Below are positions 5,595 through 26,321 of a stretch of DNA of 30,249 bases, piece after piece (positions within the stretch are counted from its first letter, which is position 1; each line of letters begins with the position of its first letter). Position numbers and translations under genes: made by a program. The stretch covers positions 1 through 30,249 of IMG/VR virus record IMGVR_UViG_3300047560_001538, one strand, 5' to 3'. Under the pieces are notes generated by a model. The model saw only the letters and a list, made by a program, of their open reading frames with translations, had not been told where the DNA came from and did no database searches. The stretch is from a virus.

Positions 5595-7927
5595 TACAGT
5601 TCACTCAATACCTCACAGAGTCGTTAGACGTAGAGAAGCTGAAACACCTCGAACACCTCGAGGATCACATCATACACGGCGGACACGAGGGTGTGGCGCA
5701 TGCCTCAGAGACTCTGTCAGATGTCGTGGCTGCGTTGGAGGGTAAACCTCGCAAGAACTTCAACCTGTCGACTAAGATCACCACTAAGTACGACGGCTCT
5801 CCTTCGATCGTATTCGGTACAGACCCACGCACCGGCAGGTTCTTCGTCGGCACCAAGTCGGTGTTCAACGAGAAGCCGAAGGCTGCATATACAGATAGCG
5901 ACATCGAACAGATGTACGGACATGCACCCGGCCTCGTTCAGAAGTTGAAGGTAGCTCTTCGTGAGTTGCCAAAGATCATGCCCAAGACTGGCGGAATTTT
6001 TCAGGGCGATCTGATGTACGAGAAGGGTGATCTGAAGGACGACGGTAAGACGTTCACGTTCACTCCCAACACCATCAGCTACTCGGCTGACGTAGACTCG
6101 GCGATGGGAAGACAGATCGCTGCTGCCAACCTCGGCATAGTTGTGCATACCAAGTACACTGGCAAGACTTTTGAGGACATGAAGGCGTCGTTCGATGTGG
6201 ATCAGACTGCGTTCCAGAAGGACCCTCTGGTGCACATGATCAATCCCGAAGTTACTAGTGCAAACATCGCGCCGATCGAGAAGAAGCAGTACGAGGCCGA
6301 GATACAGCAGGCGACTGACCTGTACTCGCAGATGCCAGAGGACGTGTTCAACGTCGTCGACGGCCACGACGTGTTGATCAAGACGTACATCAACCAGTGC
6401 ATCAAGGACAAGACTGTCCCGACTGCTAAGGGCTACCTCGGCTTCATCAAGGCACGTAATAAGAAAGAGATAGAGAAGAAGAAGTCACCCGACGGCAAAG
6501 CTAAGGCTCGTGAGAAGGGTGCTGTGATAGAAGATCACGTGAAGAACCACATGGACACCATCGACGCTGTGTTCAAGATGCACGGACACCTTCAGCGTGC
6601 GAAGAACGCTCTGGTCAACGCGCTGTCGAGAGTAGAGACCGGATTCAAGACTACCATCGGCGGCAAGCCTACCAAGCCAGAGGGATTCGTAGCCATTCGC
6701 GGTGGTAGACCTACCAAGCTAGTGGACCGCGCAGAGTTCAGTGCGGCCAACTTCGCCATGGGTGCTTTCCGTAAAGGCAGCAAGGAAGAACAAGCTGCGG
6801 CAGAGGATCTCAATCCAGTCGTCACGTCGTTCGCCCGTATGAACCCGCCGACTTACTACGGTCATGGTGCGGTAGTAAGCAAGGTGAAGGAACTGGCTGA
6901 TGAGATGAAGGCCAAGTCAGTCATCGCTCTGTCGCGTTCGCAGGATCCAGAGAAGAACCCTCTGACTCCGGAGCAGAAGCTGAAGCACGCCAAGCGCATG
7001 TTCCCCGACGCCAACATCGTCATAGCTGACGAGGACGCCAAGGACATGATGAGCCACATCAAGAAGCTGGCTGGCAAGGGTCACAAGCATTTGGTCCTAG
7101 TGGTAGGATCGGATCGCGTAGAGGAGATGAGAAAGCTCCTTGACAGGTACAAGGACCAGTTCGGCTTCAAGAAGGTCGACGTGGTGTCTTCCGGCGACAG
7201 AGACATGGAGTCTGACAAGGAAGAGGAACCCGGCGCGAAGAAGCCCGAGACCGAAGAGGACATTCGTCGCGGCATGTCTGCATCCAAGATGAGGGGTCAT
7301 GCTATCCGTGGACAGTACAAGGACTTCCGTCACGGCTTCCATCCAGACACACCAGAAGAAGTAACTCGAGAGATGTACGACGAAGTGCGTAAGGGCATGG
7401 ACATCAAGATCGATGCCTCAACTCCCATTAGAGCACTAGTCAACCATGCCAAGAGAAAAGATCCGATCGGTGTCAAGGCAAGAAGAGAACTAGAGAGACG
7501 ACACAAAGCCGGTGAGATGGAAGAGACCAGACAGAAGGCTATAAGAGCTGCCAAGAGACCGGTCAAAGCGCCGCCTAAAGCTGCCACTAAAGCACCCGCG
7601 CCGACTGTCGCCAAAAAGCCAGCGGGATTAAAATCAGCACAGAGAAACCCCGTGCGAGTTAAGACTCCTTCGAAGAGCATCCGTGAAGAGATGACGACCG
7701 GAGACATCAGGGGCATGGGTTACGTGACAGGCAATCCTCTCGTAGATGCCGGATTCCAAACAGTGTGGACTGCCATGAATCAGGCTGACGCGGACACCAA
7801 AGATCAGATCATGAACCAGACGAAGAAGAGCTTACACGACGACCTGCATGCCAACATCGAGGCACGCAGAGAATCCATGAAGCAAAACTTCATACGTTCG
7901 GTAGTCAGTTCTATAAATAGAAAATAA
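5591..7927 (+). CDS. Large fusion: ligase-like nucleotidyltransferase domain plus cytidylyltransferase-like domain
   Basis: 778 residues. The N-terminal 400 residues carry marks of the covalent nucleotidyltransferase (DNA/RNA ligase) superfamily: KYDGS at 66-70 (motif I, K66 the candidate adenylated lysine), FFVGTKSVF (84-92), GGIFQGDLM (134-142, motif III-like), EGFV (364-367, motif IV-like) and KLVDR (376-380, motif V-like). Residues about 410-580 look like an HxGH-type nucleotidyltransferase: SFARMNPPTYYGH (413-425) and MSASKMRG (562-569), the usual ISxTxxR position. The remaining C-terminus is very basic. Similar marine phage proteins are, from memory, labelled cytidylyltransferase. Substrate is unknown; RNA end repair or nucleotide/NAD metabolism are options. 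It lies in a late unit with the 4860 gene. Confidence 0.7.
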   Translation: MIQFTQYLTESLDVEKLKHLEHLEDHIIHGGHEGVAHASETLSDVVAALEGKPRKNFNLSTKITTKYDGSPSIVFGTDPRTGRFFVGTKSVFNEKPKAAYTDSDIEQMYGHAPGLVQKLKVALRELPKIMPKTGGIFQGDLMYEKGDLKDDGKTFTFTPNTISYSADVDSAMGRQIAAANLGIVVHTKYTGKTFEDMKASFDVDQTAFQKDPLVHMINPEVTSANIAPIEKKQYEAEIQQATDLYSQMPEDVFNVVDGHDVLIKTYINQCIKDKTVPTAKGYLGFIKARNKKEIEKKKSPDGKAKAREKGAVIEDHVKNHMDTIDAVFKMHGHLQRAKNALVNALSRVETGFKTTIGGKPTKPEGFVAIRGGRPTKLVDRAEFSAANFAMGAFRKGSKEEQAAAEDLNPVVTSFARMNPPTYYGHGAVVSKVKELADEMKAKSVIALSRSQDPEKNPLTPEQKLKHAKRMFPDANIVIADEDAKDMMSHIKKLAGKGHKHLVLVVGSDRVEEMRKLLDRYKDQFGFKKVDVVSSGDRDMESDKEEEPGAKKPETEEDIRRGMSASKMRGHAIRGQYKDFRHGFHPDTPEEVTREMYDEVRKGMDIKIDASTPIRALVNHAKRKDPIGVKARRELERRHKAGEMEETRQKAIRAAKRPVKAPPKAATKAPAPTVAKKPAGLKSAQRNPVRVKTPSKSIREEMTTGDIRGMGYVTGNPLVDAGFQTVWTAMNQADADTKDQIMNQTKKSLHDDLHANIEARRESMKQNFIRSVVSSINRK
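7912..7919 (+). promoter_or_regulatory. T4-type late promoter box TATAAATA
   Basis: Exact TATAAATA lying in the last codons of the upstream gene and 26 bases before the ATG at 7946 of a virion-type gene. Confidence 0.75.
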
Positions 7928-7945: not shown

Positions 7946-9256
7946 ATGGCTCAATTTCGTAAAGACACGCATCAGTACTTGAACGATGGTAAGACCATCT
8001 TCGAAGTCATGATGTTAGCAGACCAGTACGGTAACTTGGTAGGTCCAGCTAATCCATCTGGTACTGCAGTCGATGCTTTTGGCAGAGCTCGTGTCTCTAA
8101 TCCCTACACTCTCTTTGATTCGTTCCATAGATTTACAGACAACGGCAAAATCAACTCTGCTAACAGCGCAGGCGGTACGTACGCTTTCAATTCCAATACT
8201 TCTTCTATAGACTGCACTCTGACTACTGCTTCTGGTGCTTACGTCTATCGTGAGAGCAAGAGAGTGTTTGCTTATCAGCCGGGAAAGTCTCTTCAGATCT
8301 TTACTACCTTCGTCATGAATCCTGCTAAGACTAATCTACGCCAGCGTATTGGTTACTTTAGCACTACTAACGGTATCTTCTTAGAAAGATCAGACAGCGT
8401 CTACTTTGTCAAGCGTTCTAGTGTTACTGGATCTGCTGTAGACACCAAAGTAGCTCAGTCTTCATGGAACGTAGATCCTTTAGACGGTACCGGTCCGTCT
8501 CTACTCACTCTCAACTTAGATCACCCGCAGATCTTTTGGACAGACGTAGAGTGGCTAGGCGTTGGATCTGTGCGATGCGGGTTCGTCATCAACGGTCAGC
8601 TGATTCACTGTCATACTTTCCATCACGCCAACTTGAGCTCTTCACCAAAGGGAGCTTACATGCAGACTGCTTGCTTGCCGGTTCGCATGGAGATCGAGAA
8701 CACGGGAGTCACTGCAAACAGCAGTACTTACAAACAGATCTGTTCTACTGTCATCTCTGAAGGCGGCTATGCTCTAGCAGGTCGACCGCGCATGGTCGCT
8801 ACTCCTCTAGTAGCTGGTAGTACAGTGCAGTGTGCAGTTGCTGGTACATTTTATCCAGTAGTATCCATTCGTCTGAATACTAGTACTCTCGATAGCATAG
8901 TCATTCCTAAACAGATCAACGTCTTACCGATCAACTCTGCTAACTATCAGTGGAAACTGGTCAACGGAGCTACTATAACTGGTGCAGTCTGGGCGAACGT
9001 AGCTTCTGATTCTACAGTTCAGTACAATAGTAACACTGCAGCTACTATGTCTGGTGGCGATGCTTTAGACAGCGGCTTCATAACTTCTACAGTTCAAGGT
9101 GGCGGAACTCTTGCACTAAATACCGAGAACTTATTCCAGTATCAGCTAGAGAGAAATAGCTTCACTTCTACTCCTACGACGCTCACTCTAGCGGTAGCGA
9201 GCGGCACGGCTACTTCTAACGTAGCTGGTTCTATGTCTTGGGAAGAAATTACTTAA
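7946..9256 (+). CDS. Virion structural protein, probably fibre- or decoration-type
   Basis: 436 residues, Ser/Thr/Asn/Gly-rich and mostly beta-like, with no signal peptide or membrane segment. The N-terminus has the phrase YLNDGKTIFEVMMLADQYGN and then GTAVDAFGRARVSNPYTLFD (about 57-76), which I associate from memory with an abundant family of structural proteins in marine T4-like phages. The C-terminal half is repetitive beta sequence (SGFITSTVQGGGTLALN). It has its own late promoter directly upstream and stands alone as a transcription unit, in keeping with a high-copy virion component. The exact place in the particle is not decidable here. Confidence 0.75.
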   Translation: MAQFRKDTHQYLNDGKTIFEVMMLADQYGNLVGPANPSGTAVDAFGRARVSNPYTLFDSFHRFTDNGKINSANSAGGTYAFNSNTSSIDCTLTTASGAYVYRESKRVFAYQPGKSLQIFTTFVMNPAKTNLRQRIGYFSTTNGIFLERSDSVYFVKRSSVTGSAVDTKVAQSSWNVDPLDGTGPSLLTLNLDHPQIFWTDVEWLGVGSVRCGFVINGQLIHCHTFHHANLSSSPKGAYMQTACLPVRMEIENTGVTANSSTYKQICSTVISEGGYALAGRPRMVATPLVAGSTVQCAVAGTFYPVVSIRLNTSTLDSIVIPKQINVLPINSANYQWKLVNGATITGAVWANVASDSTVQYNSNTAATMSGGDALDSGFITSTVQGGGTLALNTENLFQYQLERNSFTSTPTTLTLAVASGTATSNVAGSMSWEEIT

Positions 9257-9258
9257 AG

Positions 9259-9266
9259 TATAAATA
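9259..9266 (+). promoter_or_regulatory. T4-type late promoter box TATAAATA
   Basis: Exact TATAAATA, 3 bases after the upstream stop codon. Unlike the other late boxes it leaves a leader of about 56 bases before the next ATG (9328); that leader can form a pseudoknot. Confidence 0.7.
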
Positions 9267-9273
9267 AAGCGTC

Positions 9274-9313
9274 GACAGAAAGCTACGGCAACCCTGTCTG
9301 TTCTGGTTAAGCC
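9274..9313 (+). promoter_or_regulatory. Possible pseudoknot in the 5' leader
   Basis: GACAG (9274-9278) can pair with CTGTC (9294-9298). Within that loop, GGC-AACC (9287-9293) can pair with GGTT (9305-9308) and GCC (9311-9313), leaving AA bulged. The two helices interlock as an H-type pseudoknot just upstream of the ATG at 9328. I do not recognise a known riboswitch class. Function is inferred only from position and the unusually long leader. Confidence 0.3.
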
Positions 9314-9327
9314 CACGGGAAACACCA

Positions 9328-10311
9328 ATGGATAAAGATACGAGTCTCTCTACTAGTCCTCAGCTAGAAGTTCGCGAACAGAACGGGGTCGTCGTAGCCC
9401 TGTCGCAAAAGCAGATCATTTCCCTATTCAAGAAGTCTGAAGCGTCCGGCATTCCCTTCGATACGTTGAAGGAAGTGTACGAGCGCGGCTTCACGTCAGA
9501 ACTATCAGAACAAGCGGCGTTCGGCCGCGTAAACTCATTCATCGCAGGTGGAGCAGCAGCAAAAATGGATAAAGACCTAATCGAGAAGCGCGGACTGTGG
9601 GACAACATCCATGCCAAGCGCGAGAGGATCAAGCACGGATCCGGAGAAAAGATGCGTAAGCCCGGAAGCAAGGGCGCTCCTACCGCACAAGCATTCAAGG
9701 ATGCAGCAGAAGAAGTACAGCTTGAAGGAAAGTGGCCGTATCCAAAAGAGATCAAGGGTAAAGCTACAGACGACGATAGCTATCTTGGAACCGGTGATCG
9801 CAAGCGTACTGCCAGAAAAGCTATTCGTCAAGCTGTTAAAGCTAAAGCTCACAAAGAGTTGATGACTGGTAAGAGCGCTAACGAAGAGTACACCGGTGCA
9901 GAGAAGACTACTTCCGACATGACTAAGCCAGCCAGCAGATTCGTCGGGACTACAGAGCTCACCAACACTTATAAGGACATGACTCCCGGTCAGTCAGTCA
10001 AGGACACGATCAAGCGCGTCGTCAAAGAGCAGCTAGAAGAAGCGGCCACTGACGATGCCAAGGGATACAAGAGTTCGACCGGTGGTCTTACTCAGAAGGG
10101 CAGAGATCACTACAACCGCACTACTGGCAGCAACTTGAAAGCCCCGGTCACTACTAAACCATCTAAGCTGAAGCCGGGTTCAAAGGCAGCGAATCGCCGC
10201 AAGTCGTTCTGCGCTCGTATGGGTGGCATGAAGAAGAGACTGACTGGATCAGAGACAGCAAACGATCCTGATTCACGCATCAACAAGGCACTGAGAAAGT
10301 GGAACTGCTGA
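9328..10311 (+). CDS. Conserved late phage protein, charged, multi-domain, function unknown
   Basis: 327 residues. The N-terminal domain has the segment SGIPFDTLKEVYERGF (about 40-55) followed by FGRVNSFIAGGAAAKMDKDL, a signature I recall from a domain of unknown function in many large phages (DUF5824-like). The middle is Lys/Glu-rich. The C-terminus (about 245-327: LTQKGRDHYNRTTGSNLKAP ... SRINKALRKWNC) matches a second common marine phage domain (DUF6321-like, by memory) with a conserved Cys near RKSFCARM and a terminal Cys. The late promoter upstream suggests a virion-related or assembly role. The domain names are not verified by search. Confidence 0.7.
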   Translation: MDKDTSLSTSPQLEVREQNGVVVALSQKQIISLFKKSEASGIPFDTLKEVYERGFTSELSEQAAFGRVNSFIAGGAAAKMDKDLIEKRGLWDNIHAKRERIKHGSGEKMRKPGSKGAPTAQAFKDAAEEVQLEGKWPYPKEIKGKATDDDSYLGTGDRKRTARKAIRQAVKAKAHKELMTGKSANEEYTGAEKTTSDMTKPASRFVGTTELTNTYKDMTPGQSVKDTIKRVVKEQLEEAATDDAKGYKSSTGGLTQKGRDHYNRTTGSNLKAPVTTKPSKLKPGSKAANRRKSFCARMGGMKKRLTGSETANDPDSRINKALRKWNC

Positions 10312-10505: not shown

Positions 10506-10784
10506 ATGATGAGCATTGAATCAATCATTGGAGTAGCAGTAATCGCTGGTGCTGGTTGGGTCGTATGGAAGATGCTGACCAAGGGCGAGACTGTACAGCA
10601 GGCTGCAGCAGAAGCAGCAGCTGAAGTTAAGGCTGAAGTAGCCAAGGTAGCTGACGTCAACGGCGACGGCAAGGTCGACATGGCTGATGCAGTAGAAGCT
10701 GTGAAGAAGACTCGCGGCGCTGCTAAGAAGGCTGCAGGCAAAGTCAAGGCTGCTGCTAAGAAGACTAAGAAGGCTAAGGCGTAA
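10506..10784 (+). CDS. Small membrane-anchored protein with an EF-hand-like loop and histone-H1-like tail
   Basis: 92 residues from ATG 10506 (ATG 10509 also possible), with GGAG at 10497-10500. One N-terminal membrane segment is at about 6-24. An Ala/Glu-rich linker follows, then a 12-residue loop D50-V-N52-G-D54-G-K56-V-D58-M-A-D61, a dockerin/EF-hand-type calcium-binding pattern. The last 30 residues are almost only Lys and Ala, like histone H1 tails, and could bind DNA. Function is unknown. It overlaps the dps-like gene by one base (TAATG) and shares its late unit. Confidence 0.7.
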   Translation: MMSIESIIGVAVIAGAGWVVWKMLTKGETVQQAAAEAAAEVKAEVAKVADVNGDGKVDMADAVEAVKKTRGAAKKAAGKVKAAAKKTKKAKA

Positions 10785-11221
10785 TGGATGAACTAGTCGA
10801 ACAGATGAAGGTAGTGCTGGCGAGTGCTTTCTCGCTTTACCTCAAGGCGCACTACTTTCATTGGAACGTAGAGGGTCCTAACTTCCCGCAGTATCACTCT
10901 TTCATGGGTGACTTCTACGAGGAAGTCTACGGTTCGATCGATACTATAGCAGAAGAGATGAGAGCTCTGGGTGCTTATGCTCCCGGTTCTCTCAAGCGTT
11001 TCTCTGAGTTGTCTAAGATCGAGGACGAGACAGCTATTCCAGATGCCGCGCGCATGATCAAGATCCTGTTCATGGACAACCAGATCGTGCTCGACGAGTT
11101 AGCAAAAGCGCGAGAATTAGCAGAAAGTGCTAATAAGTACGGACTCGTTAACTTCCTGGAAGACAGGTTGGACAAACATTCCAAGCATCAGTGGATGCTA
11201 AGATCAACTATAAAGGCGTAA
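10784..11221 (+). CDS. dps: Dps-like ferritin (DNA protection / iron storage)
   Basis: 145 residues, the size of mini-ferritins. The family signature is clear: KAHYFHWNVEGPNFPQYH (residues 21-38), then a segment with I-D53-TIAE57-EMRALG. H26, H38, D53 and E57 fall at the spacing of the Dps ferroxidase ligands formed between subunits; one usual acidic ligand (position 42) is Gly, with D43 next to it. Dps dodecamers oxidise Fe(II) with hydrogen peroxide, limiting Fenton damage, and some bind DNA. Here it could protect phage or host DNA, store iron, or be packaged. There is no Lys-rich tail of its own, but the gene just upstream ends in one. Confidence 0.88.
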   Translation: MDELVEQMKVVLASAFSLYLKAHYFHWNVEGPNFPQYHSFMGDFYEEVYGSIDTIAEEMRALGAYAPGSLKRFSELSKIEDETAIPDAARMIKILFMDNQIVLDELAKARELAESANKYGLVNFLEDRLDKHSKHQWMLRSTIKA

Positions 11222-19681: not shown

Positions 19682-20333
19682 AGTTATCCTTAAGGGTGTG
19701 ACACGACCCGTTGAAGGAATGCAAATGAACGTCGACGAGTTCGTAGCCTATGTGGCTCGAGTCTCTAATCCATCTAATCAAAACAATACTGAGACTGCAC
19801 CTAAGCTACTTCGCTACCTCGCTAAGCATAAGCACTGGTCACCTTTTGAAATGGTGAACGTAGTCATGGAAATAGAGACGACACGAGACATTGCTCGTCA
19901 GATCCTTCGTCATCGTTCGTTTCATTTTCAAGAGTTCAGCCAGCGATATGCCGATCCTACTCAGGACTTAGGTTTTGTTACTCGCGAAGCTCGTCTTCAA
20001 GATCAAAAGAATAGACAAAATAGTATTGAGACTAATGACGATGACATTCAAGAGTGGTGGAATGTAGCACAGACTATATCTCAACAACAAGCACAATTGC
20101 TTTATAAACAAGCTATAGATCGTGGTATTGCCAAAGAACAAGCTCGTGCAGTTCTTCCTGAGGGTCTGACTTTGTCTCGTATGTACATGAACGGTACCCT
20201 CCGCAGCTGGATCCATTACTGTCAGCTTCGTATGGGTCCAGAGACCCAGAAAGAACACCGTGAGGTGGCATCTTTGGCATGGGAAGTCATAGTTGGACAG
20301 TTTCCTAGCCTCAAAGACGCGCTCGAGTTATAA
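19674..20333 (+). CDS. thyX: Flavin-dependent thymidylate synthase ThyX
   Basis: Methylates dUMP to dTMP using methylene-tetrahydrofolate, NADPH and FAD, supplying thymidine nucleotides for phage DNA. 219 residues, normal for ThyX. The signature RHRSFHFQEFSQRY (residues 79-92) matches the ThyX motif RHR-x7-S. VNVVMEIETTRDIARQILRH precedes it as in the family, and the C-terminal substrate-binding part (LRSWIHYCQLR) is present. It is last in the primase-to-thyX string of overlapping genes. Its stop TAA is part of the late promoter for the curli-like cluster. Confidence 0.95.
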   Translation: MNRVILKGVTRPVEGMQMNVDEFVAYVARVSNPSNQNNTETAPKLLRYLAKHKHWSPFEMVNVVMEIETTRDIARQILRHRSFHFQEFSQRYADPTQDLGFVTREARLQDQKNRQNSIETNDDDIQEWWNVAQTISQQQAQLLYKQAIDRGIAKEQARAVLPEGLTLSRMYMNGTLRSWIHYCQLRMGPETQKEHREVASLAWEVIVGQFPSLKDALEL

Positions 20334-20336
20334 ATA
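20329..20336 (+). promoter_or_regulatory. T4-type late promoter for the curli-like cluster
   Basis: Exact TATAAATA overlapping the thyX stop codon. Predicted start is near 20342, so the leader is only about 14 bases before ATG 20356, with GGAG at 20346-20349. This places csgF-csgG and the genes behind them under late control. Confidence 0.75.
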
Positions 20337-20355
20337 GTTAAAATCGGAGTGCAAT

Positions 20356-20793
20356 ATGAAGAAGTTAGTTATAGCCTTTTTACTAATTTCTTCTGCTTCC
20401 CACGCCTCTGAAATGCAGTTTGGGTTCAAGAGTCCTGCATTCAACGGCGTGGGTTTTTCGTCTCATGTTCTTACTATTGATAATCTGGAACAGACCAGAA
20501 AGCAGAAGATCATAGACGACAAGAAGGCAGAGGCTGCCAAAGCGGCTGCCGACGCTAAGAACACAAACTTAGCAAAATTCCTAAATAACCTAGAGAGTCG
20601 TATCTACGCCACAATCTCGCAGAACATAGCTGCTGAGTTGTTTAAAGACGGTGGTGCGACCTCTGGTGCTTTTGATATTCAGGGTAACCATCTACAGTGG
20701 TCGTCTGACGGATCTAGCATCACACTGACTATAACTGATGCCGGCGGCAGCACTACGCAAGTCGTCGTACCCTACGGAAGTTTAGCATGGTAA
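20356..20793 (+). CDS. csgF: CsgF-like curli assembly factor
   Basis: 145 residues with a Sec signal peptide (MKKLVIAFLLISSASHA, about 1-17). The mature start EMQFGFKSPAFNGVGFSS (about 19-36) fits the CsgF N-terminal segment that plugs into the CsgG pore (E. coli pattern: FxFxNPNFGGNP). The C-terminal beta part (ITLTITDAGGSTTQVVVPYG) also fits. A Lys/Ala-rich helical insertion (about 52-68) separates the parts. In curli systems CsgF sits at the outer face of the CsgG channel and couples export to fibre nucleation. The csgG start overlaps its stop. The DNA around 20399-20458 also has a terminator-like inverted repeat. Confidence 0.85.
   Translation: MKKLVIAFLLISSASHASEMQFGFKSPAFNGVGFSSHVLTIDNLEQTRKQKIIDDKKAEAAKAAADAKNTNLAKFLNNLESRIYATISQNIAAELFKDGGATSGAFDIQGNHLQWSSDGSSITLTITDAGGSTTQVVVPYGSLAW
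20399..20458 (+). terminator. Terminator- or attenuator-like structure inside csgF
   Basis: A perfect 8-bp GC-rich inverted repeat, CCCACGCC (20399-20406) / GGCGTGGG (20446-20453), is followed at once by five T residues (20454-20458). Nested inside is a second perfect repeat, AATGCAG (20412-20418) / CTGCATT (20435-20441). It begins at the end of the signal-peptide coding part. Coupled translation would keep it open; stalled translation could let it form and stop transcription of the cluster. The fold is visible; the regulatory role is inferred. Confidence 0.45.
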
Positions 20794-21590
20794 AAGCCTT
20801 TGTCATAGCTTTAGCTTTGGTTCTAACTGGTTGTGCCGGTAAAGGTATCACTCAAAAGACCATTGAGAAAGAAGTGGATGGTCCTGAGATAGTGACACAC
20901 AAGCGATTCAACGAGCTAGTCAACATAACTGCTCCAGATGGTCCTGTAATACCGATCGCAGTGTATCGCTTCAATGACATGACTGGACAGCGTAAGCCAA
21001 ATAGCAACTACGCTTCTCTAAGTTCAGCAGTCACACAGGGCGGCGAAGTATTTCTGATCAAAGCATTACAAGATGCTGGCAAGGGTAAGTGGTTTCAACC
21101 GGTCGAGAGAGTCGGCCTTGAGAACTTAGTTAAAGAGAGACAGCTTATTCGTTCTCAGCGTGAGACGTATGAGAAAGATCAAGCTAAACCTCTTGTACCT
21201 CTAATCGTTGCGGGAGTGATGATAGATGGTGGAATTGTGGGTTACGATACTAATATCGCTACTGGTGGTTTGGGCGCTAGATTCCTTGGAGTAGGCGCTG
21301 ATCAACAGTACAGAAAAGATGAAGTCACTATCATGTTGCGACTCATCTCAGTAAACACCGGTGAGATCCTTCTCTCTACCGGTTCGACTAAGACAATTTA
21401 CAGTACCGGCGTGAGCGCTAACGTCATGAAGTTCGTGGACGCAGGTACTAAGTCAGTAGAGCTAGAAGCTGGTTCAACTATCAACGAGCCTACGACTTAT
21501 GCAGTGAGAATAGCGATTGAAGCAGCCGTTACAGATATGATTAAAGAGGGAGCAAAAAGAAAGATCTGGGGTTTCAAGAAAGGGAAATAA
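20787..21590 (+). CDS. csgG: CsgG-like outer-membrane curli secretion channel (lipoprotein)
   Basis: 267 residues, near the 277 of E. coli CsgG. A lipoprotein signal with lipobox LTGC (C16) is followed by the CsgG core: AVYRFNDMTGQRKP (58-71), FQPVERVGLENLVKERQLI, IVGYDTNIATGGLGARFLG, GADQQYRKDEVTIMLRL, NTGEILLSTGSTKTI. All align by eye with the E. coli protein, including the membrane-spanning segments. CsgG forms a nonameric 36-strand pore exporting curli subunits. At the constriction loop (KPNSNYASLSSAV, 70-82) the residues equivalent to E. coli N55/F56 appear to be S77/L78. It overlaps csgF and abuts the curlin-like gene. Confidence 0.93.
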   Translation: MVKAFVIALALVLTGCAGKGITQKTIEKEVDGPEIVTHKRFNELVNITAPDGPVIPIAVYRFNDMTGQRKPNSNYASLSSAVTQGGEVFLIKALQDAGKGKWFQPVERVGLENLVKERQLIRSQRETYEKDQAKPLVPLIVAGVMIDGGIVGYDTNIATGGLGARFLGVGADQQYRKDEVTIMLRLISVNTGEILLSTGSTKTIYSTGVSANVMKFVDAGTKSVELEAGSTINEPTTYAVRIAIEAAVTDMIKEGAKRKIWGFKKGK

Positions 21591-22265
21591 ATGAAACTAA
21601 TAACAAGAATGATGGCGTTTTTGTCATTCTTGGTTATGTTTCAATATGCAAATGCGGCGAGCAACAGCATCTATATGGATCAAATAGGTGATGGCTCCAC
21701 GATCTCGATCACGCAGACTGGCAGCGGAAATCAGGTTGGCAATAGTACGAACAGAGCCACTCTGAACGGCAATAATAATAGTGTTACTGTTCAACAGATT
21801 GGTAACTCTAACGTCACGAACATAAACGTAGACGGTGCAGGCGCGACTGTGACTAGTAATGTAACTGGTAGTTCGAACCAATCCACGATCAATTGCGACT
21901 CATGTACTGGTACTACTATCAATAAGACTGTAACGGGTGACGGTAACACCGTATCTATTCAGAACGACGGTGTCGCGACTACTAATGTATCAGTATCGTC
22001 TGATAACAATACCGTGACTATGACTAACAACTCTACGAACGCAGCTGGCGTAGTCAACAACATCGATATATCTGGTGGCAACGGTAACCAAGTGACTGTA
22101 GATCAGACTGGTGCAGCTAGCACTACTGGTCATTCGCTTGATCTTACTATAACTGGTGCGCTTAATACAACTACTATAGGACAGGGTGGCGCAGTTGATT
22201 CAAAGGTTAATGCTACTATCACTGGCTCTAGCAACACTCTTACTATTAAGTCCAACCACAACTAA
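21591..22265 (+). CDS. Curlin-repeat protein (CsgA/CsgB-like), secreted
   Basis: 224 residues with a signal peptide (about 1-22, ending QYANA). The mature part is almost wholly short beta repeats rich in Asn, Thr, Ser, Gly and Val. Several fit the curlin pattern with QxGxxN: MDQIGDGSTISITQTGSGNQ (29-48), VQQIGNSN (67-74), GNGNQVTVDQTG. A CDSC cysteine pair (C102, C105) is unusual for curlin. It begins on the base after the csgG stop and is the obvious export substrate. The last 80 bases overlap the next gene in another frame. A 9-bp inverted repeat lies just inside its 5' end. Confidence 0.75.
   Translation: MKLITRMMAFLSFLVMFQYANAASNSIYMDQIGDGSTISITQTGSGNQVGNSTNRATLNGNNNSVTVQQIGNSNVTNINVDGAGATVTSNVTGSSNQSTINCDSCTGTTINKTVTGDGNTVSIQNDGVATTNVSVSSDNNTVTMTNNSTNAAGVVNNIDISGGNGNQVTVDQTGAASTTGHSLDLTITGALNTTTIGQGGAVDSKVNATITGSSNTLTIKSNHN
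21604..21632 (+). promoter_or_regulatory. Hairpin at the 5' end of the curlin-like gene
   Basis: CAAGAATGA (21604-21612) pairs perfectly with TCATTCTTG (21624-21632) around an 11-base loop. It starts 13 bases after the ATG, inside the signal-peptide codons, where an mRNA hairpin could slow early translation or protect the message. Confidence 0.3.
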
Positions 22266-23304
22266 AGCGGACATCGGTAGAGTAACAGAGCAGACTGGTC
22301 CGACTGAAATTAAGAGGAACAACTCAAGCGTTCCATCTCAAGTTCAGTCTGAGATAGAGATGAACGACGTGGTATCTACTGCGAATTCAAAGGCAGGTAT
22401 CACGTTCAAAGATGATACTAAAGTACAGATCACGGAACACTCTCGTCTCGTGATCGATAACTTTGTCTATGATGGTGAGAAGAAGACCGGTAAGCTGGGC
22501 ATCAAGATGGCGCTCGGTACTATTAAGTACGCTTCTGGTCAGATAGCTAAGAACGATCCACAGCAAGTCGTAGTAGAGACTCCAACTGCTACCATCGGTG
22601 TACGTGGTACCGACTTCTCTGGAACCGTCGACGAGACTGGTAAGTCGACTATTATCTTATTACCTTCATGTCCTGCAGGATGGAAGAACTTACAGAGAGA
22701 TTGCACAGTAGGTAACATCACTGTAACTACGATGATGGGTACAGTGTTACTTACTAAAGCGTTTGAATCTGTAACAGTCAGCACTGGCATACAGCAGCCG
22801 AAGTCTGCTCTTCTAAATCTTTCTCTAGATCAGATCAATAACATGTTGATCGTTACACCGCCAAGAGAAGTAAGACAAGAACAGAGCAGGGGTATAACGA
22901 AAGCATTTAACTTCCTAGATCAAGACTTCTTGTCTGTAGACTACTTAAAGTTTACTGCGCTGGAACAGAACGCTCTGGATAGACCAACTGGATTAGATAA
23001 GAACTATCTGGCTTATGAAGACTATCTTCTCAACTATCTGGACGTGACTGCTGCACAGATGTTGAGTAACGAGCTCGATCAGTTCAATGCTCTTCTACCT
23101 AAATACGACAAGACTACAGGCCTTAAGTACTTCGTCGATAATGACTACGTTACCCTGTACAGAGAGACTGCTAGCCACTACGCTGAAGTCACTCTGAGTA
23201 CTACAAGGATGGCGACTCTGAATTTAAGTCAGGACGGTATTACTGTGAAGCAAGTGGTTAATGGTCCCGGCACTACAACTATAACTATAAAGCAGAGCCA
23301 ATGA
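22186..23304 (+). CDS. Secreted FecR-domain protein
   Basis: 372 residues from GTG 22186, chosen because it gives the signal peptide a charged start (Arg 7) before the hydrophobic run; ATG 22210 would give an uncharged start but is possible. After the signal (cleavage near TKA, residue 28) comes a FecR domain (about 29-160), including AGITFKDDTKVQITEHSRLV and the hallmark TPTATIGVRGTDF (132-144). Cysteines C162 and C173 follow. The C-terminal 170 residues are helical then beta, with no known domain. FecR domains of this type act in the periplasm or at the cell surface. It lies between two curlin-like genes and overlaps both. Confidence 0.82.
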   Translation: MAQLIQRLMLLSLALATLLLLSPTTTKADIGRVTEQTGPTEIKRNNSSVPSQVQSEIEMNDVVSTANSKAGITFKDDTKVQITEHSRLVIDNFVYDGEKKTGKLGIKMALGTIKYASGQIAKNDPQQVVVETPTATIGVRGTDFSGTVDETGKSTIILLPSCPAGWKNLQRDCTVGNITVTTMMGTVLLTKAFESVTVSTGIQQPKSALLNLSLDQINNMLIVTPPREVRQEQSRGITKAFNFLDQDFLSVDYLKFTALEQNALDRPTGLDKNYLAYEDYLLNYLDVTAAQMLSNELDQFNALLPKYDKTTGLKYFVDNDYVTLYRETASHYAEVTLSTTRMATLNLSQDGITVKQVVNGPGTTTITIKQSQ

Positions 23305-23564
23305 AGATACTTATAGCGCTACTCTTAATCTCTACATCTGTCCATGCACAGACCGTAAACAATGCTACAGTGAACATGCAAGGAACGAATCAAAATGTTA
23401 TTATTACTCAAAGCGGTGGAAGCCATTCTGCTAGTGTGGACCTGCGTGGAAATGGTATTACTTTTCTTGGATCCCAAAGCGGAACATCTAATCAAAGTTA
23501 CAGCATTGCTATTGATTGCGGCAGTAACTGTCCCACCAGCCCGTATACAATTACACAGTACTAA
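23301..23564 (+). CDS. Second, short curlin-like secreted protein
   Basis: 87 residues with a clear signal peptide (MKILIALLLISTSVHA, 1-16). The mature protein has NVNMQGTNQNVIITQSGG-like short beta repeats resembling curlin units (QGTNQN, QSGGSHSA, SQSGTSNQS) and a Cys pair, DCGSNC (C73, C77), similar to CDSC in the larger curlin-like protein. Its small size suggests a minor subunit or nucleator (CsgB-like), but this is inference. The start overlaps the FecR gene stop (ATGA), and two bases separate it from the cyclase gene. Confidence 0.65.
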   Translation: MKILIALLLISTSVHAQTVNNATVNMQGTNQNVIITQSGGSHSASVDLRGNGITFLGSQSGTSNQSYSIAIDCGSNCPTSPYTITQY

Positions 23565-23566
23565 CG

Positions 23567-25630
23567 ATGGAAAAGTTAGGCATCATTCTTACCAGCAAAT
23601 GGGCAGCTGTTCTTTCAGCGATGATCTTTATCGCTGTGGCAGTATGGAATCCAACCGCCGTTGAAACTTTACAACTGAAGACCTTTGACTACTTCATTAC
23701 GTCACTAGACAGTAAAGAGTCCGAGGAGATAGTACTTGTTGAGTTCGGTGAAAAGTCTGTACAGAGTTTTGGCCAGTGGCCGTTCGATCGTCGAGACATC
23801 GCGAAGACTATTGACAAGCTTCGTGAGAACGGCGCAGCCATTATTGCAGTTCCTATCCTGTTTTCTGAAAAAGATCGTGCAGGCGGCGACTCCGCTCTTG
23901 AAAAGAGTATCGCTGGCGGTGGCATCGTTATATCACAGACACCAACTTCTCAAACCAGAAACCCAGATGCTGCTCGCCGAGGGTTTGCTGCTATCGGTAA
24001 TGATCCTGCTCCATATCTCTTTACTTGGCGCGGGGCTATCCCTCCTCTTCCAAATCTTGCAGGAAATGCAGACGGCGTTGGACTCTTGGCTGTTGCTCCC
24101 GAGCGCGACGGTGTTGTTCGTCGCGTGCCTATGTTGGCTCGCATTGGGGATACACTGTATCCTTCACTTGTACTGGAAACCCTACGCACAGCTGCTGGAG
24201 ACCCCTCCTATCAAATCAAAACTGGTGACGCCGGTGTCGAGGCCGTCCGTATCCCGGCCTTCCCAGCCATCTCTACAGATCAGAACGGTCGCGTCTGGAC
24301 AACCTGGAACAATAAGTTCAGACAAGTTGAAGCAACTGAAATCCGTAAGACAGATGTCGAAGGGAAAATTGTTGTCTTAGGGTTAACAATCGAGGGAGTC
24401 GGTGGTATAATAGCTACTCCAGTCGGCGAGAAGTGGGCTCACGAAGTTCAAGCTCAGACCCTTCAGACTCTGATCGATGGGACTTCTGTTTCGAGAGCTT
24501 CATATGCGAGTTTAGTAGAAATAGGAATAACAACAATACTGCTATTGATGTTAGTTGTCCTAGTGCCACGAGTGTCTGTACGATTGACTGTCCCATTTTA
24601 TGTTCTCTTTATTGGACTTGTTATCGGTGGTTCTTACTACTTATTCCATACTCATCTTCAGTTGTGGAATCCAAGCTATATAGTCTTGTCTGGAACTATG
24701 GTGTTCTTCCATCTGGTATATAATAACTTTGCCAGAGAGAACAGACTGAAGTTACAAATCAAGAAGCAGTTTGGAACTTATCTGTCACCTAAGATGGTAG
24801 AGAAGTTGCAAGAGAATCCTGACCTACTTAAGCTTGGAGGAGAGACTCGTGAGCTTTCGATTATGTTTACTGACGTCCGTGGCTTTACATCTATTTCTGA
24901 GCATTATGGCGCTGACGTTCAAGGCTTAACACAGATCATGAACCGTTACATGACTGCCATGACTGCAAAGATCCTACAGAACGAGGGTACGTTAGATAAG
25001 TACATCGGCGACGCGCAGATGGCATTCTGGAATGCACCGCTTGACGATGCTGATCATGCAAAGAACGCAGTAAAGACTGCACTGGAGATGTTAGGTGACT
25101 TGGAACGATTTAATAGAGAAATTGCGGTGGAAGGTGTACCTGCTTTTGGAATGGGCCTTGGAATCAATACTGGTTCTGTCGTTGTGGGTAATATGGGAAG
25201 CTCCCAGCGTTTCGACTATACCTGCCTCGGTGATTCTGTTAATCTCGCTTCACGTCTTGAAGGACAGTCGAAGCCTTATCATGTCAAACTCGTCATTGGA
25301 CAACGTACTTACGAGTTGGTAAAAGACGAGTACCTATGTCTTGAACTTGACTGTATCGCTGTTAAGGGAAAGAAGGAGGGTGTGAACATCTACACGATCG
25401 TAGATAACAATAGTTTGAACGTAGCTTATTCTCGTACTCATGCTGACTTCATTCAACTATATCGCTCCCAGCAGTGGAATAGAATGAAAGAATACTATAT
25501 GACTCTAAGAGATGCTTTTAGCGGAGATATGAGAGAGTACTACGATATGATGATGGAGAGAGTGGAGGAGTTCATTAAGAATCCTCCAGGTAATGATTGG
25601 GACGGAATCTACCGTGCGACTAGCAAATAA
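23567..25630 (+). CDS. CHASE2-domain membrane adenylate cyclase (class III)
   Basis: 687 residues. An N-terminal membrane segment (about 10-28) leads to a CHASE2 extracytoplasmic sensor (about 35-310). Three membrane spans follow at about 313-335, 340-360 and 368-386. The class III cyclase domain (about 428-615) has the metal-binding aspartates D436 (FTDVRGF) and D482 (YIGDAQMAFW), K478 and D550 at the base-recognition positions, and transition-state N559/R563 (GDSVNLASRLE). K and D there favour ATP, so cAMP is the likely product. All catalytic residues appear intact. No ribosome site is obvious; it is probably coupled to the curlin-like gene 2 bases upstream. It converges with the minus-strand genes. 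Confidence 0.93.
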   Translation: MEKLGIILTSKWAAVLSAMIFIAVAVWNPTAVETLQLKTFDYFITSLDSKESEEIVLVEFGEKSVQSFGQWPFDRRDIAKTIDKLRENGAAIIAVPILFSEKDRAGGDSALEKSIAGGGIVISQTPTSQTRNPDAARRGFAAIGNDPAPYLFTWRGAIPPLPNLAGNADGVGLLAVAPERDGVVRRVPMLARIGDTLYPSLVLETLRTAAGDPSYQIKTGDAGVEAVRIPAFPAISTDQNGRVWTTWNNKFRQVEATEIRKTDVEGKIVVLGLTIEGVGGIIATPVGEKWAHEVQAQTLQTLIDGTSVSRASYASLVEIGITTILLLMLVVLVPRVSVRLTVPFYVLFIGLVIGGSYYLFHTHLQLWNPSYIVLSGTMVFFHLVYNNFARENRLKLQIKKQFGTYLSPKMVEKLQENPDLLKLGGETRELSIMFTDVRGFTSISEHYGADVQGLTQIMNRYMTAMTAKILQNEGTLDKYIGDAQMAFWNAPLDDADHAKNAVKTALEMLGDLERFNREIAVEGVPAFGMGLGINTGSVVVGNMGSSQRFDYTCLGDSVNLASRLEGQSKPYHVKLVIGQRTYELVKDEYLCLELDCIAVKGKKEGVNIYTIVDNNSLNVAYSRTHADFIQLYRSQQWNRMKEYYMTLRDAFSGDMREYYDMMMERVEEFIKNPPGNDWDGIYRATSK

Positions 25631-25631
25631 G

Positions 25632-25985
25632 TTACTTCTTCTTTACTTCTTTGCTTGGTTCGTCTGGTTTATTTTCGGGCTCTTTATGTGGTATCTCTTT
25701 GGGCATACTCTCATCTTTACGGAACTTACTCGCTTTTGCTAGTAGTTCGTCGTGCTCCATTTCACGAAGCATAAGTACTATGTTAACCTTTTGATTCAAT
25801 CTAATCAGGTCGTTGTCTAACATACGGATACGGTCGATGAGAGCTATAAGAACAGTGTTGGCATCAGACAAAACGGGCTTGATCTCTTTGGTCGCCCATT
25901 CCCATACATAGTAAACGAAGTAACCGAGTCCTACAGCAGCAACGATTGGAAAACCGTACTTTGAAATTAGCTGTGCAATATCCAT
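25632..25985 (-). CDS. Small single-span membrane protein, paralogue of its neighbour
   Basis: 117 residues on the minus strand. N-terminal MDIAQLISKYGFPIVAAVGL and a membrane span (about 12-31) precede a coiled-coil-like segment (about 40-75) and a charged, Lys/Glu/Pro-rich tail. The pattern GFPIxAAxxxGYF plus LIDRIRMLDNDLIRL is shared with the 25988-26275 gene. AGGAG stands before its ATG on the minus strand. Topology fits a holin-like or virion membrane protein. It shares the late promoter with its paralogue, ends 1 base from the cyclase gene stop, and no terminator is visible between them. Confidence 0.7.
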   Translation of the reverse strand: MDIAQLISKYGFPIVAAVGLGYFVYYVWEWATKEIKPVLSDANTVLIALIDRIRMLDNDLIRLNQKVNIVLMLREMEHDELLAKASKFRKDESMPKEIPHKEPENKPDEPSKEVKKK

Positions 25986-25987
25986 TT

Positions 25988-26275
25988 TTAATCTCTCCTA
26001 GCGTCGTTCTTGCCGTCGGCTCGAGCGATACGATCGATGTCAGGCTTAACACCCAGAGCATTAGATACAAGGGTGTCGATTCGTATGACGTCGTGGTTCA
26101 TGGTCTTGACCCTGTTGTCAAGAGCGGTGATGATTCCACTGAGACCCTTTACCGAGCTCATGACACCAGCGAGAATAAACTTCATGGTGAGAAAGATAAA
26201 ATATCCGCCAGCTATCGCAGCCGCGATTGGAAAACCGACGTCGGCTATTAGTTTAAAGATTGAATTAACATCCAT
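25988..26275 (-). CDS. Small single-span membrane protein (first of a paralogous pair)
   Basis: 95 residues on the minus strand. The N-terminus MDVNSIFKLIADVGFPIAAA runs into a membrane span (about 14-38), followed by a helix with ITALDNRVKTMNHDVIRIDT and a basic/acidic tail. Similar proteins are known to me as conserved hypotheticals of marine T4-like phages. The minus-strand late promoter (26321-26314) lies 38 bases upstream of its ATG. It is followed 2 bases later by the related 117-residue gene. Candidates: holin-type lysis protein or minor virion protein; undecided. Confidence 0.72.
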   Translation of the reverse strand: MDVNSIFKLIADVGFPIAAAIAGGYFIFLTMKFILAGVMSSVKGLSGIITALDNRVKTMNHDVIRIDTLVSNALGVKPDIDRIARADGKNDARRD

Positions 26276-26288
26276 AGAAGCACCCGTG

Positions 26289-26317
26289 TTGACATTTTGT
26301 GATATTCATGGTATATT
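26289..26317 (+). promoter_or_regulatory. Sigma70-like (early) promoter for nrdA
   Basis: TTGACA (26289-26294), a 17-base spacer and TATATT (26312-26317); the predicted start is near 26324, followed by AAGGAG at 26329-26334 and ATG 26341. It has the same -35, spacer length and -10 as the uvsX promoter. Its -10 overlaps the minus-strand late box at 26314-26321. Confidence 0.75.
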
Positions 26318-26321
26318 TATA
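26314..26321 (-). promoter_or_regulatory. Minus-strand T4-type late promoter box
   Basis: TATTTATA on the plus strand reads TATAAATA on the minus strand. It is 38 bases before the minus-strand ATG ending at 26275, the same spacing as the plus-strand late boxes. It should drive the two small membrane proteins. Confidence 0.7.

Follow-up and report, generated by a model that had tools for sequence, protein, structure and literature searches.

Curli-type genes were reported in pelagimyophages in 2020 (PMC7029224), and in 2022 a cluster running CsgF, CsgG, CsgA/B, FecR, CsgA/B and adenylate cyclase was described in pelagi-podophages as well as myophages, with phage curli genes found at all 65 GOV2.0 stations (PMC9599517). 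Two cultured T4-like phages of the Kyanoviridae, Melnitz (MZ577098) and HTVC008M (KC465899), also carry such a module, with an identical gene order in their GenBank records. We analysed a locus of this kind in IMG/VR virus record IMGVR_UViG_3300047560_001538, a 30,249-base fragment (46% GC) from a T4-like phage, the whole of which is referred to here as the window. Six genes, for CsgF, CsgG, a first curlin (curlin 1), a FecR-domain protein, a second curlin (curlin 2) and a CHASE2-domain adenylate cyclase, lie contiguously at 20356-25630, neighbours abutting or overlapping, and two small genes, sm1 and sm2, converge on them from the other strand. We read the cluster as a module by which the phage would carry out type VIII (curli) secretion and sensing late in infection, and put the probability of this reading at about 0.6.

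The likeness to the published pelagiphage modules is close: the same genes in the same order, an optional second curlin and no CsgE. The texts of the two papers (PMC9599517, PMC7029224) do not contain late control, sm1/sm2 or T4-like carriers of 285-364 kb, and these points, together with evidence for FecR-cyclase pairing, appear new. Podophage clusters have a histidine kinase in front (PMC9599517); none was found here. One of the papers includes two hypothetical proteins, equal in size and without names, in its tally of the operon, their identity unstated in the text (PMC7029224), and these might be sm1 and sm2 (93 amino acids each in HTVC008M) or others. An earlier sequence-only reading of the window had rightly pointed to curli genes in pelagimyophages (PMC7029224); the six-gene cluster that it set out had already been fully described (PMC9599517).

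Melnitz and HTVC008M share all eight genes with the window, sm1 and sm2 included. Their CsgG is 44-49% identical to that of the window, their second curlin has 339-442 amino acids against 87, and their sm genes lie upstream on the same strand, whereas those of the window are convergent. The Melnitz paper states that csgA/csgB are missing (PMC9004378), contrary to the GenBank record, which annotates two curlin-repeat proteins. Bacterial curli operons, represented by E. coli csg and alphaproteobacterial csgFG, have CsgG, CsgF and curlin repeats in common with the phages. E. coli has CsgE, which the phages do not, and none of the FecR, cyclase or sm genes was present in five alphaproteobacterial csgFG regions of 18-19 kb.

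Late promoter boxes and the layout of the module

We compared the window with about 170 related loci. Scans of viral contigs anchored on CsgG gave 104 nonredundant loci, 30 of which had long flanks on both sides, and a scan anchored on sm2 gave at least 595 relatives, the best 80 of which were taken further. Two further sets comprised 50,697 annotated phage records and 22 large records. A Salmonella phage match, OR851715, was set aside as a 1.5 kb unverified, unannotated contig.

The sequence-only reading placed an exact late promoter box of T4 type, TATAAATA, ahead of the cluster, and the box is there (Table 1). Against an expectation of 0.68 exact copies the window has seven, a number reached by no shuffle, and other copies precede likely late genes, for example that of a virion structural protein (phrog_1645) starting 34 nucleotides (nt) past the box at 7912. 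Among related loci we counted the core TAAATA within 80 nt 5' of start codons, with a background expectation of about 3%. Where the sm genes are convergent and csgF is the first gene of the unit, the core preceded csgF in 43 of 43 loci and sm2 in 35 of 43. Where sm2 and sm1 lie upstream of csgF, it preceded sm2 in 56 of 63 loci and csgF in 7 of 64, which is chance level. Shuffled upstream sequences carried the core in about 6 of 43 and 12 of 63 cases. Genes internal to the unit lacked it almost entirely (CsgG 0/134, sm1 3/107), as did thyX (0/13). The exception was the cyclase, with a core in 15 of the 43 convergent-layout loci, where other genes often precede it.

A gp55-type late sigma factor was encoded in all 19 large contigs that bear a T4-type gp23 capsid gene; the window, being a fragment, has no gp55 within it. 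Prediction of late promoters had failed in pelagimyophages (PMC7029224), so the comparison of layouts adds evidence on this point. The box core stands ahead of whichever gene opens the unit and shifts with the layout, which indicates, as far as promoter sequence can, that the module is switched on late in infection, as the sequence-only reading had proposed for a dedicated system.

The conserved unit and the sm1/sm2 pair

All 30 long-flank CsgG loci carry csgF, curlin 1, FecR and cyclase genes, in 29 of them all in one order and on one strand, and csgG standing alone, the pattern named beforehand as speaking against a dedicated system, was seen in none of them. The slot of curlin 2 is empty in relatives or occupied by proteins of very different size, up to 683 amino acids; the second curlin is optional and not part of the core. 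The conserved unit is sm1, sm2, csgF, csgG, curlin 1, FecR and cyclase plus an optional second curlin, and the order of its seven core genes is kept in the CsgG-anchored and sm2-anchored sets alike. The six-gene unit proposed from the window alone thus held as a dedicated and co-inherited system, with five of its genes universal among the 30 loci; it counted curlin 2 among its members and overlooked sm1 and sm2.

The sm1 protein matches the sm2 profile at 8.6e-12, which makes the two paralogues, and each has one predicted membrane helix. The pair lies upstream on the same strand in 64 loci and downstream and convergent in 44. In the CsgG-anchored set sm1 was found in 27 and sm2 in 26 of 30 loci; the four without sm2 comprise two with truncated flanks (L140, L155), one that stops soon after the cyclase (L170) and one without sm2 within its flanks (L031), which does not look T4-like because both gp23 and gp55 are lacking. 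From the other direction, sm2 was present in 22 of the 22 large records, every locus of at least 18 kb among the best 80 of at least 595 sm2 relatives had curli genes, and among the 50,697 annotated phage records sm2 occurred only in the six with a full curli cluster. An absolute linkage was considered and rejected on account of a contig in a metagenome-assembled genome (MAG), L121, that has sm2 but is free of curli genes for about 9 kb on its upstream and 3.2 kb on its downstream side; the linkage is near-universal.

Across 47 loci the median identity of sm2 was 86.5%, the maximum in the module, against 58% for CsgG; this set was partly selected by sm2, but the trend is the same in the loci selected by CsgG and in the two cultured phages. 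Fourfold-degenerate sites were equally diverged in both genes (in L027, 7/34 identical in sm2 and 27/76 in CsgG). Since silent sites in sm2 are saturated, its conservation points to selection on the protein and not to recent transfer. Against the PDB the sm2 profile gave coiled-coil-like matches only. A role of sm1/sm2 as a periplasmic substitute for CsgE is not favoured, the charges flanking the helix hinting at a cytoplasmic C-terminus for sm2 and being undecided for sm1.

Some sm2 genes stand in other surroundings. In a 10 kb MAG contig that is otherwise chromosome-like (CTP synthase type), an sm2 gene at 9150-9431 lies near a truncated phosphoesterase-like open reading frame (ORF); this contig (L120) may be a chimera or an integrated remnant. 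In L179 and L201 the gene order around sm2 is unlike both main layouts, the best match to sm2 overlapping the region that separates sm1/csgF from csgG.

Ten of the 19 gp23-bearing contigs belong to divergent T4-like phages with gp23 about 36% identical to that of Melnitz, and nine of these ten are 285-364 kb long. These contigs show that the module extends beyond normal-sized phages of SAR11 and OM43; no account of curli in jumbo phages came up in the literature searched. Phage CsgG sequences formed one clade apart from the five bacterial CsgG sequences that were compared, a sparse sampling, in answer to the call for a phylogeny against bacterial copies. The module may have arisen when a curli exporter and a FecR-cyclase pair were joined with a membrane pair of phage type.

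Contigs of phages with the curli module occur in bacterial MAGs (L122, L123, L125-L128, L215, L217-L219) labelled Flavobacteriaceae, Rhodobacteraceae, Pelagibacter, Maricaulis or Synechococcus, where their modules can wrongly pass for bacterial FecR-cyclase curli operons. In about 25 loci (for example L026, L027, L064, L091, L118, L140 and L155) a metallophosphoesterase, LpxH-like but below the NCBIfam cut-off, lies in or beside the module. It is often accompanied by a GT4 glycosyltransferase that comes closest to glycolipid synthases. The combination resembles the PlcP-Agt pair with which marine bacteria remodel their lipids, an identity that is not established.

Table 1. Coordinates of the curli-type locus in the window
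Feature	Position	Strand	Length	Properties
Late promoter box, T4-type, TATAAATA	20329..20336	+		Exact match; 27 nt 5' of csgF; overlaps thyX stop codon
csgF	20356..20793	+	145 aa	Predicted exported chaperone/partner of CsgG pore; PF10614 E 7e-17
csgG	20787..21590	+	267 aa	Predicted outer-membrane lipoprotein pore, lipobox; PF03783 E 3e-53
curlin 1	21591..22265	+	224 aa	Predicted secreted curlin-repeat protein, beta-solenoid
FecR-domain gene	22210..23304	+	364 aa from ATG 22210	Predicted exported protein; PF04773 E 6e-12
curlin 2	23301..23564	+	87 aa	Small, optional, predicted exported; Curlin_rpt E 0.08 (weak)
CHASE2-domain class III adenylate cyclase	23567..25630	+	687 aa	Predicted membrane protein; CHASE2 E 5e-40, Guanylate_cyc E 2e-21
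sm1	25632..25985	-	117 aa	Predicted one-helix membrane protein; sm2 paralogue; phrog_18771
sm2	25988..26275	-	95 aa	Predicted one-helix membrane protein; best-conserved module protein
Late promoter box, T4-type, TATAAATA	26314..26321	-		Exact match; 5' of sm2
aa, amino acids.

Elsewhere in the window lie a RecA-like gene, a gp41-type helicase gene, a primase-like gene, thyX, nrdA and nrdB. A 232-amino-acid protein encoded at 16137-16835 matches the C-terminal portion of AMP-binding proteins of the acyl-CoA synthetase type, a family unusual amid phage structural genes, and a Ferritin/Dps-like protein (PF00210, E 7e-26) is encoded at 10784-11221.

Predicted export components and a putative FecR-cyclase pair

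All six ORFs called in a row by the sequence-only reading were confirmed, with Pfam support for CsgF, CsgG, FecR and CHASE2/Guanylate_cyc. CsgG matched solved CsgG over nearly its full length (E 2e-49) and has a lipobox, a family-level assignment from which a nonameric pore is predicted. The CsgF profile resembled solved CsgF over residues 4-57, that is the signal peptide and the N-terminal segment (E 3e-4), and the motif F..P.[FL].G was present in 137 of 166 sequences. In solved structures the N-terminal segment of CsgF sits in the CsgG barrel. Because this segment is retained, CsgF and CsgG probably still form a pore pair, a reading at odds with the proposal that CsgF no longer belongs to the complex (PMC9004378).

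The two curlin calls fared differently. Curlin 1 matched Curlin_rpt in the window at E 0.0012, just short of the Pfam cut-off, and 30 of 42 relatives matched it at E <= 0.01, the best at 1e-8. An AlphaFold2 model, like the other structure models built on an alignment of viral and genome loci only, was a beta-solenoid with a predicted local distance difference test score (pLDDT) of 89. Its top match by Z was the solved curlin CsgA (8c50, Z 19.2), but with a root-mean-square deviation of 8.7 and with other solenoids reaching Z 18. On these grounds we assign curlin 1 as a predicted curlin-repeat fibre subunit. The assignment of curlin 2 is weaker and depends on its Curlin_rpt match (Table 1).

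For the FecR-domain protein the ATG in Table 1 is a likelier start than the GTG at 22186, which is possible. The predicted structure shows a periplasmic fold of the FecR/PupR kind (Z 15.3 to 6ovk) and also resembles an adhesin surface-anchoring domain (5ix9). A signal-peptide-like start is followed directly by the FecR domain; neither an anti-sigma part, nor a transmembrane helix, nor a further domain was detected in this protein. The lack of an anti-sigma part makes 'ferric citrate regulator' doubtful as a name. The nearest NCBIfam models, below cut-off, were surface adhesins and lipoproteins. A curlin-like tail at the C-terminus was considered and is not claimed, as hhalign gave a probability of 35% only and the weak structural matches were immunoglobulin-like.

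Aligned with solved CyaB, the window cyclase has a complete set of active-site residues (D436, D482, K478, D550, N559, R563), comprising the two metal-binding Asp, the adenine-selecting Lys and Asp and the transition-state Asn and Arg. The Melnitz cyclase, unlike that of the window, has altered residues. Among 122 phage cyclases the equivalent of N559 is Ser in 32 and that of D550 is Ser or Gly in 32, with the metal Asp, Lys and Arg invariant; the altered sites fall in one sublineage that includes Melnitz (L039), L105, L112, L118, L150, L160, L172, L189, L202 and others.

No gene separates FecR from the cyclase in a number of phage loci, and their reading frames overlap there. Of 20 bacterial loci chosen regardless of cyclase, 9 also had a FecR-domain gene and a related CHASE2-type class III cyclase gene within one short stretch; the bacterial loci sampled differ from the phage modules in having no linkage to curli. 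Cyclase matches in genomes of this class range from zero to about 22, which puts chance adjacency at roughly a few per cent, an estimate and not a computed value. The bacterial neighbours and the overlapping phage frames together suggest that FecR and the CHASE2 cyclase are a functional pair.

Proposed function and alternatives

The sequences themselves show the gene set and its conserved order, the co-conservation, the late boxes, the catalytic residues and a predicted fold for the curlin. Fibre assembly, FecR-cyclase interaction, the role of sm1/sm2 and the benefit to the phage are inferred, along the following lines. Late transcription dependent on gp55 would lead to production of CsgG and CsgF. 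Curlin 1, together with curlin 2 in loci that have it, would cross the inner membrane by host Sec and leave through the CsgG-CsgF pore as surface amyloid. The periplasmic FecR protein and the CHASE2 cyclase would form a sensor pair that converts conditions at the envelope or pore to a cyclic AMP (cAMP) signal in the cytoplasm, and sm1 and sm2 would be inner-membrane parts of the module.

Several observations weigh against this scheme. CsgE, noted as missing from the window by the sequence-only reading, was indeed found in 0 of the 22 large records by a search in which the E. coli control was positive, so export may be inefficient or work otherwise; since CsgE is stated to be not strictly essential for curli (PMC7029224), we do not take its lack to exclude type VIII secretion. 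The CsgD regulator, listed as absent by the same reading, was not the object of a search of its own. Both curlins of the window fall under the Pfam cut-off. A cAMP role common to all these phages is less credible because about one in four of their cyclases (32 of 122) has lost a canonical active-site residue. Finally, cells infected with Melnitz did not clump in culture (PMC9004378).

Late timing favours functions near virion release, among them aggregation, retention of progeny and debris masking, over classical early superinfection exclusion. The likeliest benefit is that the amyloid would hold cells, debris and progeny together around lysis, at somewhat less than even odds.

It is unlikely that the module instead sets the time at which the cell opens, with CsgG as outer-membrane pore and sm1/sm2 as holin-like proteins, as outlined for CsgGF on a gene-neighbourhood argument (PMC9004378). 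The late boxes would agree with such a role, and the small one-helix paralogous pair has weak similarity to a holin family (phrog_4898; sm1 E 2.6e-4, sm2 E 0.013). However, this match is limited to the first residues, the pore-binding segment is retained in CsgF, and the conserved curlin 1, CsgF, FecR and cyclase would be left unexplained.

Superinfection exclusion, in which surface amyloid or a changed outer membrane blocks other phages, was put forward by the sequence-only reading and has been suggested in the literature (PMC9599517). Export of a large repeat protein would change the cell surface, and the phage module is a dedicated one, but the late boxes imply expression past the period when exclusion matters most. 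The T4 exclusion genes imm and sp are early, so this role fits poorly with late timing, and we consider it just as unlikely as a function in lysis. It is also improbable that late amyloid coats receptors on the lysing cell and spares released virions from loss on debris. Such masking would fit late timing and surface export and would need no clumping, consistent with the culture observations (PMC9004378), but it does not itself explain the cyclase.

Very unlikely is a role in nutrient uptake, in which an ungated CsgG pore admits cofactors or iron compounds and FecR is an iron regulator (PMC7029224, PMC9599517): the FecR domain is present and no CsgE gate was found in the large records, but FecR comprises the periplasmic part only, its nearest models are those of adhesins and lipoproteins, the curlins would serve no purpose and late timing leaves little time. 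Least likely is an ordinary acquired host operon that has no late control and is read through from thyX, which csgF closely follows in the window: the late box is retained across loci and changes place along with the gene that opens the unit, the gene upstream of csgF differs among many loci and the sampled bacterial operons are without FecR, cyclase and sm genes.

Returning to the late secretion and sensing module, we tentatively raise a further version of it, which we hold to be rather unlikely as it stands. The phages may possess a machine of their own and not a borrowed curli operon, with export, the FecR-CHASE2 sensor and sm1/sm2 in one late unit, amyloid export coupled to a cytoplasmic signal near lysis and sm2, the most constrained protein, as its core. 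The conserved late boxes narrow the possible roles of the module to events around virion release. As the unstudied and highly constrained sm1 and sm2 are present in two cultured phages, the purpose of phage curli genes is directly testable.

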